Shown here one piece after another: positions 56,738 through 64,000 of a DNA stretch of 64,000 nucleotides (position 1 is the stretch's first letter; each line of letters begins with the position of its first letter). Made by a program: the position numbers and the translations under genes. The DNA is from Candidatus Gastranaerophilales bacterium (GTDB taxonomy: Bacteria > Cyanobacteriota > Vampirovibrionia > Gastranaerophilales > Gastranaerophilaceae). The stretch spans positions 1 through 64,000 of the forward strand of contig CALVEH010000010.1 in assembly GCA_944326545.1 (NCBI GenBank), read 5' to 3'. The notes beneath the pieces were generated by a model that was not told the origin of the DNA, did not search any database, and was given only the letters and a program-made list of their open reading frames with translations.

Positions 56738-57061
56738 ATGAAAAAAGTATTAGCTTTGTTTGTTGTGTTTTTTGTTGCTGCTTCCCTAGCTGCAAATGCA
56801 GATTGTGAGTGTTCTTACAGACAACAAAAGAAAATGCTTCATAACAGAAAGATGATTAAAAATAAGGTTATTAATGCTCAGGTAAAAGGTAAAATGCTTG
56901 CTATACAAGAACTTGCGTCAAATGACTATTGTAATGACCCTATTGTAAAAGCCCAAATCGTTGCTTATCAAAAACAGATTGTCGATTTGACAAACCAAAA
57001 AATGTGCTTGAAAGACGAGTATAAAAAATCATTAAAAGAGTTAAAAGCAAAGAAAAACTAA
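56738..57061 (+). CDS. Small secreted Cys-containing protein
   Basis: This 107-residue protein has a signal peptide (KKVLALFVVFFVAASLAANA). The mature part is Lys-rich and helical with a Cys-x-Cys (CECSYRQQK) and two other cysteines (YCNDP, MCLKDE), so disulphides are possible. The ribosome-binding site AAAGGAG lies 8 bases upstream. It is not recognised. Its stop overlaps the stop of the convergent KS gene by 4 bases. Confidence 0.65.
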   Translation: MKKVLALFVVFFVAASLAANADCECSYRQQKKMLHNRKMIKNKVINAQVKGKMLAIQELASNDYCNDPIVKAQIVAYQKQIVDLTNQKMCLKDEYKKSLKELKAKKN

Positions 57062-58281
57062 ACTTTTTTAAAGATTAAAGATGTGTTTATGCCTCCAAAA
57101 GCAAAATTGTTAGACATAACAATATCCGTTGCAAACTCTTTTCCTTCACCTTTTAAGTAGTCAAGGTTTGCACATTCTTCATCTACATCGTTAAGATTTA
57201 AGGTTGGGCAAAACCAGCCTTTATTCATCATTTCTATAGAGATTATTGCTTCGATAGCTCCACAAGCACCTAGGGTGTGACCGGTGTAGCTTTTTATAGA
57301 ACTTATCGGTACTTGTCTTTTAAATATCTCATAAGTTGCAATGCTTTCTGCTATATCTCCGCTGTGAGTTGCTGTTCCGTGGGCGTTAATATAGCCGATA
57401 TCATCTGTTGAAATATTTGCGTCTTTGATTGCTCTTGCTATTGCACTGCCCATTGTTTCGTGGTTCGGGTTTGTGATGTGTGTTCCGTCTGTTGTTGTAC
57501 CAAAGCCGATTACTTCTGCATATATTTTTGCACCGCGTTTTTTAGCATGTTCGTAATCTTCAAGCACTAATGTTGCTGCGCCTTCTCCTATGACAAGCCC
57601 GTCTCTGTTTTTATCAAACGGTCTTGGGGTTAGTTCAGGGTGATTGTTTTGTTGGCTTGTTGCGTACAAGGTATCAAATACAGCAATTTGTGACGGGTGA
57701 AGCTCTTCTGCACCGCCTGCTATCATAATTGTTTCGTAACCGTTTTTTATTGCTTCGTAAGCGTATCCTATGCCCATAGAGCCTGATGTGCACGCTGTAG
57801 AGGTAGGTATCAATCTGCCTTTTGTTTTAAAGTACAAAGAGATATTTACGCTTGTGGTTTGTGGCATCATTTTTATATAAGAGCCTGAGTTAATGCCTTT
57901 TACTCTTTTTTCAACTTCCATTGTGTAAAAGTCGATAATTGATTCTAAAGACCCTGAAGAAGAACCATAGCTTACGCCGGTTTGTTCTGTTTGTATTATC
58001 GGGTCTGTGAGTAATCCTGCATCATTAAGTGCTTGTTCACTGACGACAGTACTCATCAGCGCAACTTTTCCCATTGTTCTTGTTATTTTTCTGTTAAAGT
58101 GCTCAGGTGTCTTAAAACCTTGTACTTTTGAGCAGAGTTTTGCGTTAAGGTTTTGGTATTCCTCAAGCGTGCTGTCATATGCAATACAATTTTCGTATTT
58201 TTGCAGCCTTAAAAAAGCGTCTTCAACTGTACAACCAAGCGGGCTAGCAAGAGCCATTCCTGTTACGACAACTCTTTTCAA
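57058..58281 (-). CDS. Beta-ketoacyl-ACP synthase (aryl polyene KS, ApeR-like)
   Basis: This 407-residue thiolase-fold condensing enzyme of the FabF/KAS II type joins malonyl-ACP units. The catalytic triad is intact: Cys164 in STACTSG, His301 in NAHGTATHSGD and His335 in KSYTGHTLGACG, with Lys330 before it. It starts 4 bases before the end of the ketoreductase gene and ends the minus-strand arm (KS-dehydratase, KR, KS). In proteobacterial aryl polyene clusters a homodimeric KS stands at this place (the R position). It is therefore likely the iterative enzyme that extends or starts the chain. Assignment rests on order plus catalytic residues. Confidence 0.9.
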   Translation of the reverse strand: MKRVVVTGMALASPLGCTVEDAFLRLQKYENCIAYDSTLEEYQNLNAKLCSKVQGFKTPEHFNRKITRTMGKVALMSTVVSEQALNDAGLLTDPIIQTEQTGVSYGSSSGSLESIIDFYTMEVEKRVKGINSGSYIKMMPQTTSVNISLYFKTKGRLIPTSTACTSGSMGIGYAYEAIKNGYETIMIAGGAEELHPSQIAVFDTLYATSQQNNHPELTPRPFDKNRDGLVIGEGAATLVLEDYEHAKKRGAKIYAEVIGFGTTTDGTHITNPNHETMGSAIARAIKDANISTDDIGYINAHGTATHSGDIAESIATYEIFKRQVPISSIKSYTGHTLGACGAIEAIISIEMMNKGWFCPTLNLNDVDEECANLDYLKGEGKEFATDIVMSNNFAFGGINTSLIFKKV

Positions 58282-59006
58282 GAATAAAGTCCTCCGTTAA
58301 CAGAAATAACTTGTCCCGTAATATAAGAAGCGTCTTCGCTTAGTAGATAATTAACAAGGCTTGCTACTTCTTTGCCTGTGCCAAAACGTTTCATCGGAAT
58401 CATTTTCTTAACTTCATCAACAGGCAAATCTTTTGTCATATCAGATTCTATAACACCAGGGGCAACACAATTTACAGTTATCCCTCTTTTTGCCAGTTCA
58501 AGACTCAGTGCTTTTGTTGCACCTATAATACCTGCTTTTGATGCGCTGTAGTTAACCTGACCTCTGTTACCTCTAAGACCTGAGATAGAAGACAGTGTAA
58601 CAATTCTTCCTTTTATTCTTTTTTCAATCATCGGCATAATTATTGGTTTTAGTACGTTGTAAAAACCGCCGAGGTTTGTGTTTAGTACATCGTCCCATTC
58701 GTTTTCTTCCATAACAGGGAACACGTTATCTCTTGCAATTCCTGCATTTAAAACAGTTGCGTAATAAACTCCGTTTTGTTCTATGTCTTTGCTTATTGTA
58801 TTTAAGCATTCTTGTCTGTTCTTTATATCAAATTGCAGAATTCTTGCTTTAGAGCCAAGCTCTTCTATTTCTTTTTGAACTTCTTTGGCTTTTTCTATAT
58901 TTTTTTGACAGTGTAATACTACGTCATAACCGTTTTTTGCAAGGTAGAGAGCAATTTCTTTCCCTATTCCTCTGGATGATCCGGTAACAAGTACTTCTTT
59001 AACCAT
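58278..59006 (-). CDS. 3-oxoacyl-ACP reductase (aryl polyene ketoreductase, ApeQ-like)
   Basis: This 242-residue short-chain dehydrogenase/reductase of the FabG type reduces the beta-keto group with NADPH. The nucleotide-binding loop is TGSSRGIG (residues 8-15), NAG (87-89), and the catalytic residues are Ser140, Tyr153 and Lys157 (YSASKAG). All are present. It overlaps the following KS by 4 bases and lies 23 bases after the KS-dehydratase fusion, so the three genes form one transcript. The same order occurs in known aryl polyene clusters. Confidence 0.92.
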   Translation of the reverse strand: MVKEVLVTGSSRGIGKEIALYLAKNGYDVVLHCQKNIEKAKEVQKEIEELGSKARILQFDIKNRQECLNTISKDIEQNGVYYATVLNAGIARDNVFPVMEENEWDDVLNTNLGGFYNVLKPIIMPMIEKRIKGRIVTLSSISGLRGNRGQVNYSASKAGIIGATKALSLELAKRGITVNCVAPGVIESDMTKDLPVDEVKKMIPMKRFGTGKEVASLVNYLLSEDASYITGQVISVNGGLYS

Positions 59007-59029: not shown

Positions 59030-60631
59030 TTATAATTCTATTTGTGAGTTTGTTATATCTTCAGGTTGGTAGGCGTTGATCACAGCTTTTGCGCACTCTA
59101 TACCATCATTATAGATAAAACACTCGAACGAAACAAGTTCGTTATCTGTAAAGACCTCTTTGACAGAGATTTCGTACGTTTTGTCTTTTTCAAATTTTTC
59201 TAAACTGCAATTGTATGAGCGACTACCTAAAAGAAAGCCTATTTTTGCTTCGCCTGAACCTCTTTTAAAGTAAGAAAAACAGCCTATTGTCTGTGCCATA
59301 AATTCTATCCCTGCAAGAGGAGAAACTCCCTGAATTGTAGCATCGTAAAAAATCTTGTTTTCGTCAATTGTGACAAGAGCTTTGGCAGAATTTTCTTCAA
59401 GATTGATATCAGACACTTTGTCTATAAGTATCATTGGTCTGTCATGTGGTAATACTTTTGCTAAATCCAAATTGTCATAGTTGTTGGTTTGCTTGGCTTT
59501 ACCAAAAATAATTACTGCATTAGATCCGCCAAAGCCAAAGGCATTACACATAACATAATTTTGTTTTTCTGCTTTATCGTTTTTGTTAGTGAGTTTTATT
59601 TTAGGTAAGGCATCATCGTATGTTCCGTCATAGTTGTGCGGTAATAAAGCTTTTTGTTTATTAATCGTTTCATCTAAAAATGCAAGACAAAGTGCTGATT
59701 CTACCGCAGAAGATGCACCAAGGCAATGGCCTGTAAGTGATTTTGTTGAGCTGCAAGGTACTTTGTCTTGGAATACTCTATAAACTGCGTTAGACTCCAT
59801 TAAGTCATTGCTCACAGTACCTGTCCCATGCAGGTTTATGTAGTCTATATCTTGGGCATTGATATTTGCCTTTTTTAATGCTTCTTCTATTGCAACGGAT
59901 GCTTGAACCCCTTCAGGGTCTGGCGTTGCACTGTGGTATGCGTCAGAGGTTTCTCCTATACCAAGGATTTGTATTCCTTTGTCGCTTTTTTCAAGAATAA
60001 ACAACGCCGCTCCTTCACCAAGGTTTATGCCGTCTCTGTTTTTTGAAAATGGCTTGCAAATGTCGTGGGTCATTACTTCGAGTGCATTAAAGCCAAATGA
60101 CGGAGTTTTTGATATTGAATCAGAACCGCCGCATAGTACAGCGTCACAGATTCCGTTTTCAATAAGCTTTACCCCTGTTGAGAAAGCTTTTATTCCCGAT
60201 GTACAGGCGGTTGAAACTCCAGCGCAATAGCTGTCAAGCTTTAAGTGTTCTTTTAAAAATATTGCAGGCGAGCCTATTTGAGAGTGGAATACATCTTTGC
60301 TTATCTCGTACTCATTTACTCCCGCATTTGTTGTTCCTATAACTACGCCTATTCTTTTGTTGCTGTATTTTTTTATTAAATTGTCTATATCTGTTTTTAT
60401 TTGGCTGCAGCAGTGTAATAAAAGTGCATTTGTTCGCGTGTTAAATTTTGGATTCTCTATTTTGGGTAATTCTTGCTTAACTTTGCCAAAGAAAAATTTT
60501 GTACCTTTAACAATACTGTCATCACAAGAGAAGACAGTCGAGTCCGCAATAAGAGCGTTGTTAAATATTTCTTGTATATTAGTGCCAAGGTTGCATACAG
60601 CACTGTAAGATGTTATAGCAATATTTGTCAT
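59030..60631 (-). CDS. Fused beta-ketoacyl synthase and hot-dog dehydratase (ApeO-ApeP-like)
   Basis: This 533-residue bifunctional protein has a KS domain at residues 1-380, with Cys143 (STACTSG), His268 (NLHGTGTVSND) and His302 (KSLTGHCLGASS). A hot-dog dehydratase domain at about 390-533 has the catalytic His in LPHDRPMILID (His396) and then TIQGVSPLAGIEFMAQTIG. A FabA/ApeP-type dehydratase makes the trans double bond after ketoreduction. In characterised aryl polyene systems KS and dehydratase are separate adjacent genes (O and P), so here they are fused. It starts 18 bases from the divergent CLF gene and is the first gene of the minus arm. Confidence 0.9.
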   Translation of the reverse strand: MTNIAITSYSAVCNLGTNIQEIFNNALIADSTVFSCDDSIVKGTKFFFGKVKQELPKIENPKFNTRTNALLLHCCSQIKTDIDNLIKKYSNKRIGVVIGTTNAGVNEYEISKDVFHSQIGSPAIFLKEHLKLDSYCAGVSTACTSGIKAFSTGVKLIENGICDAVLCGGSDSISKTPSFGFNALEVMTHDICKPFSKNRDGINLGEGAALFILEKSDKGIQILGIGETSDAYHSATPDPEGVQASVAIEEALKKANINAQDIDYINLHGTGTVSNDLMESNAVYRVFQDKVPCSSTKSLTGHCLGASSAVESALCLAFLDETINKQKALLPHNYDGTYDDALPKIKLTNKNDKAEKQNYVMCNAFGFGGSNAVIIFGKAKQTNNYDNLDLAKVLPHDRPMILIDKVSDINLEENSAKALVTIDENKIFYDATIQGVSPLAGIEFMAQTIGCFSYFKRGSGEAKIGFLLGSRSYNCSLEKFEKDKTYEISVKEVFTDNELVSFECFIYNDGIECAKAVINAYQPEDITNSQIEL

Positions 60632-60634
60632 ATT

Positions 60635-60644
60635 TGATATAATA
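60635..60644. promoter_or_regulatory. Back-to-back promoter of the aryl polyene arms
   Basis: TGATATAAT (60635-60643) is an extended minus-10 element for the plus arm, ending 6 bases before its ATG (60650). The reverse strand reads TATTAT (60644 to 60639), 7 bases before the minus-arm start codon at 60631. Neither start has a Shine-Dalgarno sequence, so both mRNAs would be leaderless. The start codons are only 18 bases apart. Confidence 0.5.
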
Positions 60645-60649
60645 CTACC

Positions 60650-61279
60650 ATGAATTTTGAAAAAATTTTTTATATTTCTAATATAAATTTTGCTGATGAA
60701 TCTAACATAGATGTGTCTTTTTTACCGCCTATGGCAAGAAGAAAGCTTAGCCAAATTGATAAAGCTGCTTTGTGTGTAATGAATAGCACATTTAATCAAT
60801 CTGAATGTAAAGAGCCTGTGATTATATTTTCTTCTCAATACGGAGAATTGGACAGATTGGATAAAATTATCTCTCAGTATCAGGAAGATAATGAAGTATC
60901 ACCTTTTACTTTTAGTACTTCTGTTCATAATTCTATTGTAGGGCAGTTTTCTTTGTTAAACGGAATTAAAAAAAGTTATAACGCATTGGCTTCAGGTGAT
61001 AACAGTTTAAGTATCGGGCTTTTGGAAAGCTATATGTCTGCAAGTGATGAGAATGATGTTTTATATTGCTATGCGGATGCATATAAAGAGGTAAAAGCCT
61101 GTGCATTATGTGTGTCATTAAAACCGAGTGACGGTGCAATAAAAGTTTTGTTAAAACAAAATGATTGCGAAAAAACTTCTGCTGATGAGTTTTTGGATTT
61201 TAAAGGCTTTTGTGAAAATAAAGTTAACAGTTTTGCCTCTTATGACGGGTTGTTTTCTGTTTTCAGAGGTGAAAGTTAG
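60650..61279 (+). CDS. Ketoacyl-synthase-like chain-length factor (ApeC-like)
   Basis: This 209-residue protein is an N-terminal ketosynthase-like fold without the catalytic cysteine: NALASGDNSL (111-120) occupies its place. FSSQYGELDRL (60-70) and SPFTFSTSVHNSIVGQFSLL (84-103) match the Ketoacyl-synt_2-type proteins found in aryl polyene loci. Such a protein pairs with an active KS as chain-length factor, setting the number of condensations. It starts the plus arm, 18 bases from the divergent KS-dehydratase. The short length is usual for this subfamily. No signal or membrane segment. Confidence 0.85.
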   Translation: MNFEKIFYISNINFADESNIDVSFLPPMARRKLSQIDKAALCVMNSTFNQSECKEPVIIFSSQYGELDRLDKIISQYQEDNEVSPFTFSTSVHNSIVGQFSLLNGIKKSYNALASGDNSLSIGLLESYMSASDENDVLYCYADAYKEVKACALCVSLKPSDGAIKVLLKQNDCEKTSADEFLDFKGFCENKVNSFASYDGLFSVFRGES

Positions 61280-62026
61280 ATGAAGTACTGGCGTTCTTTT
61301 GTTGTACTTTTTTTATTTTGCTTTTTTGGGGTAGGATCTTTGATATTGGGGCTTATTTATATCCCGTTGACAGGACTTTTTATAAAGCCTGAAAAAAGAC
61401 GACCATTTTATTGTAATGTCGTTCATAATTTGTGGGCTTTTTTTACAAACTTGATGCAGCTTGCCGGTTCTATAAAACTCAACATAGATAAGGATACAGA
61501 AACTTCTTTAAAAAATACAAAAGGCTCTGTTATTGTGGCTAACCACCCGAGCTTTATAGATATAGTTTTGTTGATAGGTTTGATACCAAATTCTTTGTGT
61601 GTTGTAAAAAAAGAAGTAAAAAAGAACCCTATTATGAGCAATATTGCTACATCTGCTTATCTTATCAATGATGAAGATAATGAGTTGCTTAAGCAAGAAG
61701 CTACAAAGGCTCTTAATCACGGATTTAATGTGATAATCTTCCCTACAGGAACAAGGACTGTAGAAGGTGAGGATATGAAACTTCATAAAGGTGCTGTTTC
61801 TATAGCAATGTATGCTAATGCGCCTATTGTCCCAGTACATATTAGCTGTGATTATAAATTTCTTGCAAAGCACCAAAAAATATTAGATGCAGGAACAAAG
61901 CCCGTAAATTATTACTTAACATTGAATAAAACAATCAATATTGATGAATATAGAGAGCCTAATCTTGATGATACAAAACTGAGAAGGCGTTTAAATGCTA
62001 TTGTTAAAGATAGAATAAGCCATTAA
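61280..62026 (+). CDS. Lysophospholipid-acyltransferase-like protein (PlsC family)
   Basis: This 248-residue membrane-associated acyltransferase has two N-terminal hydrophobic helices (FVVLFLFCFFGVGSLILGLIYIP, quoted by its ends FVVLFLF and GLIYIP). Motif I is NHPSFID (residues 88-94, with His89 and Asp94), and motif III is FPTGTRT (here in place of the usual FPEGTRS). It starts one base after the chain-length-factor gene, with the stop and start almost touching. In aryl polyene clusters an acyltransferase of this type attaches the polyene to a lipid or glycerol acceptor. The acceptor cannot be told here. Confidence 0.85.
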   Translation: MKYWRSFVVLFLFCFFGVGSLILGLIYIPLTGLFIKPEKRRPFYCNVVHNLWAFFTNLMQLAGSIKLNIDKDTETSLKNTKGSVIVANHPSFIDIVLLIGLIPNSLCVVKKEVKKNPIMSNIATSAYLINDEDNELLKQEATKALNHGFNVIIFPTGTRTVEGEDMKLHKGAVSIAMYANAPIVPVHISCDYKFLAKHQKILDAGTKPVNYYLTLNKTINIDEYREPNLDDTKLRRRLNAIVKDRISH

Positions 62027-62069: not shown

Positions 62070-62339
62070 ATGGATAAAGATAACATTAGTCTGGAAGACG
62101 AATTAAAAGCATTTATAGTTGAAGCATTAGAGTTAGAAGATATTGACCCTTCTGATATCGAAACTGATGCTCCGTTATTTATTGACGGTTTGGGGCTGGA
62201 TTCTATCGATGCTCTTGAACTTGGTATGGCTTTAAAGAAAAAATATAAACTTTCTTTGGGCAGCAACAAAGAAGAAAACAAAAAACATTTTTATTCTGTT
62301 AAAACTTTGGCAGATTTTATCAGAAATTCTCAAGTATAA
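62070..62339 (+). CDS. Acyl carrier protein (ApeE/F-like), first
   Basis: This 89-residue acyl carrier protein keeps the phosphopantetheine site Ser45 in LGLDSIDALE (DSI motif). It has a helical ACP fold and an acidic face. The C-terminus carries a short, basic KKHFYSVKTLADFIRN tail that is usual for polyketide ACPs. It starts 43 bases after the acyltransferase and has its own possible promoter. Confidence 0.95.
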   Translation: MDKDNISLEDELKAFIVEALELEDIDPSDIETDAPLFIDGLGLDSIDALELGMALKKKYKLSLGSNKEENKKHFYSVKTLADFIRNSQV

Positions 62340-62352
62340 GGTAGTGTGGTAA

Positions 62353-62604
62353 ATGGTTCAATACACAAGAGATGAAATCTTTAATGTATTAAAAGATATA
62401 TTGGTTAACGATTTTGAAATCGAGCAAGACCAAATAGTTCCTGATGCCAATTTATTTGAGGATTTAGATTTTGACAGCATAGATGCTGTCGATTTGGCTG
62501 TAAGGCTTCAAGAATATACAAATCGTAAGATTTCTCCTGACAATTTTAAAGAAATCAGAACAGTTAATGATGTTGTTATAGCTGTGGAGCAGCTTCTTGC
62601 GTAG
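62353..62604 (+). CDS. Acyl carrier protein (ApeE/F-like), second
   Basis: This 83-residue acyl carrier protein has Ser42 in LDFDSIDAVD as the site for phosphopantetheine. It follows the first ACP by 13 bases. The two ACPs differ clearly in sequence, so they may carry different intermediates, for instance starter and extender. Its 3' end overlaps the membrane-protein gene by 8 bases. Confidence 0.95.
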   Translation: MVQYTRDEIFNVLKDILVNDFEIEQDQIVPDANLFEDLDFDSIDAVDLAVRLQEYTNRKISPDNFKEIRTVNDVVIAVEQLLA

Positions 62605-63034
62605 CATGCGTTTTTTAAAAGAATGTTTTAAAAAATACGGGTTTGTTTTTTCTACGCTGTTTACGTTTGTTGTTATTGCGTTGTTCCATTTTACAAGGCT
62701 AAGCGGGCTTAAGCTGTATCCTGTCGTAATGAACTTTTGTATTTTTATGATGTTTTTTACTTCTGTATTTTCTGAAGAAACGATTATACAAAAATTTGCC
62801 AGGCTATCTGAAGGCAAAGAACTTGACCCTAAAACCAAAAACTACACAAAAAATCTCACTTATATATGGTGTGTTTATTTATTGTTCCAGTTTTTGGTTT
62901 CATTTGCAACTTTGTTTATGTCTGATAAAGTTTGGATGATTTTTAACGGTTGTGTTTCTTATATTTTACTGGGAAGCTTTTTTGCTGTAGAATATGTTTT
63001 TAGAATCTTTTTTAAAAAAAGACACGGACTATGA
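62597..63034 (+). CDS. Four-helix membrane protein (COG4648-like)
   Basis: This 145-residue protein has four hydrophobic helices: FVFSTLFTFVVIALFHF, VVMNFCIFMMFFTSVF, IWCVYLLFQFLVSFATLF and MIFNGCVSYILLGSFFAVEY. It resembles COG4648 membrane proteins of aryl polyene clusters, whose task is unknown but which may assist in lipid attachment or transport. The start is TTG at 62597 with GGAG 7 bases upstream; an ATG at 62606 has no site at a good distance. It overlaps the ligase gene as ATGA. Confidence 0.75.
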   Translation: MRSMRFLKECFKKYGFVFSTLFTFVVIALFHFTRLSGLKLYPVVMNFCIFMMFFTSVFSEETIIQKFARLSEGKELDPKTKNYTKNLTYIWCVYLLFQFLVSFATLFMSDKVWMIFNGCVSYILLGSFFAVEYVFRIFFKKRHGL

Positions 63035-64000
63035 ACGTATTTGAGATTTTTCATACAAAAGAATTTGATACAAAGACTATTTTAAAAAGAAACGGCAAAA
63101 ATTTGTCTTTACAGGAGTTTAAAGAGTTTATTTCTGTAGCTGTTAATTTTTTGAATTCTCAAAGTTGCAAAAACGCTGTTGTCTTAAGCTCAGATGCGTT
63201 TGATTTTGTTGTATGGTTTTTTGCCTGTATTGCAGCAAAAAAAGAAATATTTTTGTTAACAGATTCATCAAAGTTAAAGTACTTGGAGTTTGAGTATGTT
63301 CTTCTTGACAAAATTCTTGATAAAAAATGTGACAAAAATATTGAATATGACCCAATAGACTGTCATAAGGTGAGTATTAACTTTTTTACATCAGGTTCTA
63401 CCTCAAAACCTAAAATGATAACTAAGACTTTGACTAATACTATTATTGAAGCAGAGGATGTTTTTGCAGAGTTTTTATCTGATTATAAAAATCCGTTTAG
63501 GGTTTTAACTTCTACAAAATCTCAACATATGTTTCCGTTTATTTATTATTTTATTTTGCCGTTGGTTTATTGCGAAAAACTTTTAATGGATACAACAGAT
63601 GTTTGTTATCCTGATGATGCAGATTTTAAAGACAGTATGTTTGTTTCTACCCCATCGTTTTTAGAAAAATTTGAAAAGTATAATGTAAAAAACGAATACT
63701 CTCCTTATGTGATTTTTACGGCTGGGGCAAAGATTAAGGATAGTGTTCGTAAATATTTAGAACAAGACAGCACTGTAATTGATATTTATGGCAGTACAGA
63801 AACAGGTACTGTAGCATTTAAAAGACATTCCTCAGAAAATACTTTGACTTGTATGAAAAGCGTTGAGATAGAACCTGATGAAAATTCTCAGATTGTAGTA
63901 AAATCTCCATACTTTATAGAAACAAGCTGTACTTTAGGTGATATAGTAAATATTGTTGACAAAAAGAGTTTTATTTTGATGAATAGAGCAGATAGAATAC
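63031..64000 (+). CDS. AMP-forming acyl/aryl ligase (ApeH-like), cut by window end
   Basis: The first 323 residues of an ANL-superfamily adenylating enzyme are visible. It has the phosphate-binding loop FFTSGSTSKPK (118-128), YGSTETGTVAF (about residues 253-263) and a late GDI near 311. Such an enzyme activates an aryl or fatty acid and loads it on an ACP. In aryl polyene systems it activates 4-hydroxycinnamic or 4-hydroxybenzoic type starters. The gene starts at ATG 63031, overlapping the previous stop (ATGA), and runs off the window end. Confidence 0.85.
   Translation, partial: MNVFEIFHTKEFDTKTILKRNGKNLSLQEFKEFISVAVNFLNSQSCKNAVVLSSDAFDFVVWFFACIAAKKEIFLLTDSSKLKYLEFEYVLLDKILDKKCDKNIEYDPIDCHKVSINFFTSGSTSKPKMITKTLTNTIIEAEDVFAEFLSDYKNPFRVLTSTKSQHMFPFIYYFILPLVYCEKLLMDTTDVCYPDDADFKDSMFVSTPSFLEKFEKYNVKNEYSPYVIFTAGAKIKDSVRKYLEQDSTVIDIYGSTETGTVAFKRHSSENTLTCMKSVEIEPDENSQIVVKSPYFIETSCTLGDIVNIVDKKSFILMNRADRI

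Follow-up and report, generated by a model that had tools for sequence, protein, structure and literature searches.

A ketosynthase and a hot-dog domain in one frame

Candidatus Gastranaerophilales are gut bacteria. In a 64,000-nucleotide stretch of DNA from one of them (the window, which is the first 64000 of the contig's 82878 bases), a single frame encodes a ketosynthase (KS) followed by a dehydratase-like hot-dog (DH) domain. Are two enzymes genuinely joined here, and could the resulting chain pass its product from condensation to dehydration by itself, as the original prediction proposed? The features of the locus are collected in Table 1.

Table 1. Features of the fusion locus (window positions).
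Feature	Coordinates	Strand	Remarks
ApeR-like ketosynthase	57058..58281	-	PRK09116 above cut-off; 4-nt overlap with ApeQ stop
ApeQ-like ketoreductase (FabG family)	58278..59006	-	profile matches; downstream of fusion gene
ApeO-ApeP fusion protein	59030..60631	-	533 aa; ATG start; stop codon 59030-59032
ApeP-type hot-dog half-dehydratase, residues 390-533	59033..59464	-	PF22817; E443 present, FabZ catalytic His absent
Linker, residues 381-389	59465..59491	-	flexible; lowest pLDDT at 381-384
Ketosynthase (KS) domain, residues 1-380	59492..60631	-	profile, active-site residues, structure matches
Divergent spacer, 18 bp, with TATAAT	60632..60649		between ApeO-P and ApeC start codons
ApeC-like chain-length factor (half-size KS, Ketoacyl-synt_2)	60650..61279	+	PF13723 3.6e-29
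1-acylglycerol-3-phosphate-type acyltransferase, ApeD-like position	61280..62026	+	PF01553; TIGR00530
Acyl carrier protein 1	62070..62339	+	PRK09184
Acyl carrier protein 2	62353..62604	+	PRK05350
Small membrane-like cluster protein	62597..63034	+	position conserved; no Pfam match
ApeH-ApeI N-terminal part (AMP-ligase + other half-dehydratase)	63031..64000	+	continues to contig 64653

Pfam and NCBIfam profiles recognise the N- and C-terminal ketoacyl-synthase domains in the KS part, and residues 1-379 match PRK09185 (NF006618), a beta-ketoacyl-ACP synthase subfamily, at 2.6e-114, with a score of 382 bits that falls below the 407 cut-off of this profile. The Cys-His-His set of active-site residues is complete (C143, H268, K297 and H302). 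By sequence, the KS is nearest to PDB chain 6qsp_A and the hot-dog part to 6qsr_B. In the AlphaFold model of the fusion protein (mean pLDDT 88.5) both domains are confident. The best structure matches of the KS are 7f28_B and 6qsp_A, the latter with a TM score of 0.89 by target and 36% identity; the fold search identifies 6qsp as ApeO with ApeC from Xenorhabdus doucetiae. The KS is indeed of the chain-extending type (ApeO), as had been predicted. As for ApeO:ApeC of X. doucetiae (6QSP) and Acinetobacter baumannii (PMC8358021), a gene for a half-size chain-length factor (CLF) adjoins it; unlike ApeO of those species, ApeO here bears a C-terminal ApeP domain. The top 50 matches in the fold search with the full chain were all KS structures, and the assignment of the hot-dog part therefore relies on sequence: residues 390-527 match the ApeP-like family PF22817 at 8.6e-14, with 51.8 bits against a curated cut-off of 27. 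Among the best 80 of at least 525 related loci, the nearest named matches to the DH part, at 98%, are metagenome-assembled genomes of Candidatus Gastranaerophilales.

The relatives with which we compared the locus, largely metagenome assemblies, often have separate genes, as would be expected if an assembly or base-call artefact had joined two genes in the window. Nevertheless, eight congeneric genomes, 71-98% identical, contain the same uninterrupted frame despite diverged sequence and differing linkers, and none has the stop or frameshift near residue 385 that would betray such an error. A fused frame in independent, diverged congeners results neither from chance nor from base-calling, and we discarded the artefact reading, to which we give practically no weight. 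The separate genes of more distant relatives are an alternative evolutionary state, not an error.

A first comparison of 28 loci found the fused frame in the window genome, the eight congeners and two other genera. The enlarged set of 97 Gastranaerophilales loci with both parts comprises 23 fused loci, nine from the window's genus and 14 others, and 74 separate ones; the fused count includes two loci that are cut by contig ends yet have both parts in one frame (G308 and G342). Since 74 of the 97 loci do without it, the fusion is dispensable. Separate genes nearly always abut or overlap: in 70 of the 74 loci the DH start, chosen mechanically, lies between 14 nt before and 20 nt after the KS stop. 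Linkers of fused relatives differ in length and sequence. In 16 of the 23 fused frames the interval from FGFGG (KS motif) to LPH (DH motif) contains no ATG, GTG or TTG, meaning that ApeP is not translated separately in those; the window linker has one TTG there. Five loci (L087 in G021, L084 in G010, and L017-L019 in G006, G014 and G010) have KS and DH in-frame with a single TAA or TAG between them, and are thus one base change away from the fused state or split recently.

Outside the Gastranaerophilales, the KS and dehydratase are separate adjacent genes in the Pseudomonadota clusters that we read, as the original prediction had stated for characterised clusters. The aryl polyene clusters of E. 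coli, Klebsiella and Pseudoalteromonas have the order O-P-Q-R, as here, but their O and P are separate, and so are ApeO and ApeP of A. baumannii. None of eight Pseudomonadota loci from a plasmid collection has the KS motif in the DH frame (one, L264, is uninformative, as it yielded a mere 80-aa frame lacking the DH motif), and no ApeP outside the window's family was seen in 194 genomes sampled from the phylum. ApeO:ApeC, ApeI:ApeP and ApeH-ApeI are known already; the ApeO-ApeP fusion appears to be new, as we found no published report of it in a search that covered few subscription journals and not the primary X. doucetiae study.

A dehydratase site probably divided between two proteins

The dehydratase FabZ has its catalytic His and Glu within one chain, which forms a homodimer. 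We compared alignment columns with a FabZ reference (1u1z). The Glu, in the motif GIExMAQ, is present in 97 of 99 ApeP rows, the other two being misplaced hits, whereas a His at the FabZ His column occurs in none of the 99. The combination of His and Glu in one chain that characterises a self-sufficient FabZ-type dehydratase is therefore not found in ApeP. Conversely, in an ApeI alignment built with a motif seed, the GHF His motif is present in all 76 sequences, with Tyr or Phe at the acid position in nearly every one. ApeP thus has the Glu without the His and ApeI the His without the acid, so that each holds half a site. Judged by these residues, the ApeP part is half an enzyme and not the complete dehydratase that had been predicted.

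The same distribution, Glu on ApeP (PF22817) and His on ApeI (PF22818), is found in the ApeI:ApeP heterodimer (6QSR; PMC8041823), which in A. baumannii has a single active site (PMC8041823). Unlike in 6QSR, both halves are fused here, each to a different enzyme. In X. doucetiae, ApeI has an Asp at the acid position, which ApeI here lacks.

The ApeI half exists in the window's genome, although not as the stand-alone protein that the original prediction proposed to look for: it is part of the protein of the ligase ApeH. Its domain lies at 64387-64623 of the contig, outside the window, where it scores 28.7 bits against a cut-off of 28.5 (PF22818) and has the GHF His. A search of the whole genome returned this frame alone above the cut-off; a second ApeI match, of 15.9 bits on contig C3, is below it and comparable to matches in 10 control genomes. 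Each of the 76 complete ApeH frames of Gastranaerophilales loci includes ApeI, and in a targeted search of 20 genomes the match ran to the end of ApeI within a single frame in 19, with none found in the remaining one (G103). A ligase with ApeI fused to its C-terminus is likewise known from A. baumannii (PMC8041823); in Pseudoalteromonas, unlike here, ApeH and ApeI are separate too.

In four fused genomes of the window's genus (G002, G007, G009 and G017), the ApeOP-Q-R-ApeC block and ApeH-ApeI are on different contigs, so these species may have the cluster in two pieces, which tells against a site shared by the two fusion proteins; the clearest case is G002, where 18 kb around the ApeOP block contain no ApeH. 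In another genus (g6), L068, L109 and other loci have ApeH-ApeI frames of about 420-447 aa instead of about 540, with the GHF motif kept. The match of these short proteins to the window protein starts near residue 112, so their ligase has either lost its N-terminal part or diverged there.

A self-sufficient ApeP part, acting on the product of the KS in the same chain, would agree with the fold family, which is correct for a dehydratase. However, the FabZ catalytic His is absent from all ApeP rows and present only in ApeI, which makes this reading very improbable, and a complete dehydratase on the KS was discarded on account of the missing His. For the same reason, and because ApeI sits on ApeH, the ApeO-ApeP chain is unlikely to manage the hand-over from condensation to dehydration without ApeH-ApeI as its partner. 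We consider it probable, with good confidence, that the locus encodes a genuine apeO-apeP translational fusion whose dehydratase site is shared with ApeH-ApeI.

Recurrent origin of the fusion

On a tree of the concatenated KS and DH parts (515 columns, IQ-TREE in quick mode), the fused label needs 9 changes, compared with 20.8 in shuffles, and at least 7 of the 9 are forced by strongly supported branches. Separate trees (FastTree) require 11 changes for the KS alone and 9 for the DH alone. The fusion is thus recurrent, and on the concatenated tree fusion and separation alternate within genera. The tree tool gives no direction to these changes; the separate genes of the Pseudomonadota clusters suggest that the separate state is ancestral. 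Most probably, abutting or overlapping genes fused repeatedly when the stop codon between them was lost. In genus g6, four fusions (L076, L079, L093 and L095) share a GC-rich, palindromic-looking linker element, and a pattern derived from this linker was found 11 times genome-wide in G075, once at the ApeO-ApeP junction. Here, the two genes were apparently joined when a repeat inserted and eliminated the stop. The clade of the window's genus has retained the fusion while its proteins diverged by nearly 30%.

Obligate complex or neutral tether

ApeO works with ApeC in this family (PMC8358021, PMC8253772). In the mechanism that we propose, the KS part would pair with the chain-length factor ApeC and extend the chain, while the ApeP part would give the Glu, and ApeI, on the C-terminus of ApeH, the His of a single dehydratase site. 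This site would require ApeO-ApeP and ApeH-ApeI to associate via their hot-dog domains, a pairing that we infer from homology to the X. doucetiae and A. baumannii proteins, the comparison behind it giving about 29% identity for ApeP. With both fusions present, assembly of the dehydratase site would necessarily link KS:CLF to the ligase, and KS:CLF, dehydratase and starter ligase would consequently be held in one complex at a fixed ratio. That the double fusion makes this type II polyene synthase an obligate KS:CLF-dehydratase-ligase complex, with a site shared by two chains, is a possibility that we put forward tentatively, at rather less than an even chance. A gain from the fusion in rate, or in channelling as originally suggested, would be a further presumed consequence.

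A serious rival, which we rate just short of an even chance, is that the fusion is real and functionally neutral, the hot-dog domain merely tolerating an N-terminal tether with no channelling benefit. Its strength lies in the ease with which fusion occurs: with the DH start so close to the KS stop in nearly all separate loci, a single indel or stop loss joins the genes, the two states alternate within genera, and the linker of one genus consists of a dispersed repeat, that is, an accident. Against neutrality, the fusion has been retained over the divergence of the window-genus clade, and the start codons in the linker have mostly been lost. The natural pairs of closely related fused and separate loci allow a direct test of what a covalent tether does in a type II polyketide synthase. 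If the obligate complex is real, the double fusion would be a naturally occurring intermediate between type II and type I synthases, reached repeatedly within one order. The case also provides a dehydratase active site with one catalytic residue on each of two multidomain proteins, and shows how readily overlapping biosynthetic genes fuse.

The surrounding cluster

The core set of an aryl polyene cluster is present at the locus: two KS, the CLF, a ketoreductase, two DH parts, two acyl carrier proteins (ACPs) and the ligase. The set is also complete for thioesterase, carrier and transporter genes. Past the window, the genes after ApeH-ApeI encode a 4HBT thioesterase, a LolA-like protein, assigned by its position and size relative to a characterised cluster, and a large transporter whose sole Pfam match is SecD/SecF. 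Further on are an O-methyltransferase and then an acyltransferase-like gene with no Pfam match. Between the transporter and the O-methyltransferase, a minus-strand gene of 226 aa, also with no Pfam match, may encode a phosphopantetheinyl transferase.

The presence of the O-methyltransferase, and the fact that neither an aromatic ammonia-lyase nor a DUF3261 gene was recognised in the cluster, would fit a related type II system that makes another polyene or a modified acyl lipid instead of an aryl polyene cluster proper. We regard this as unlikely, though less so than a self-sufficient ApeP, since the core parts and their order (O-P-Q-R, ApeC, acyltransferase, two ACPs) match characterised clusters, in which ApeH-I and the thioesterase are likewise placed as here.

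The divergent spacer, ATTTGATATAATACTACC, keeps its length in 11 genomes of the genus, the window's included. Its TATAAT lies very near the ApeC ATG, so there may be a leaderless transcript here, or the promoter may be bidirectional.
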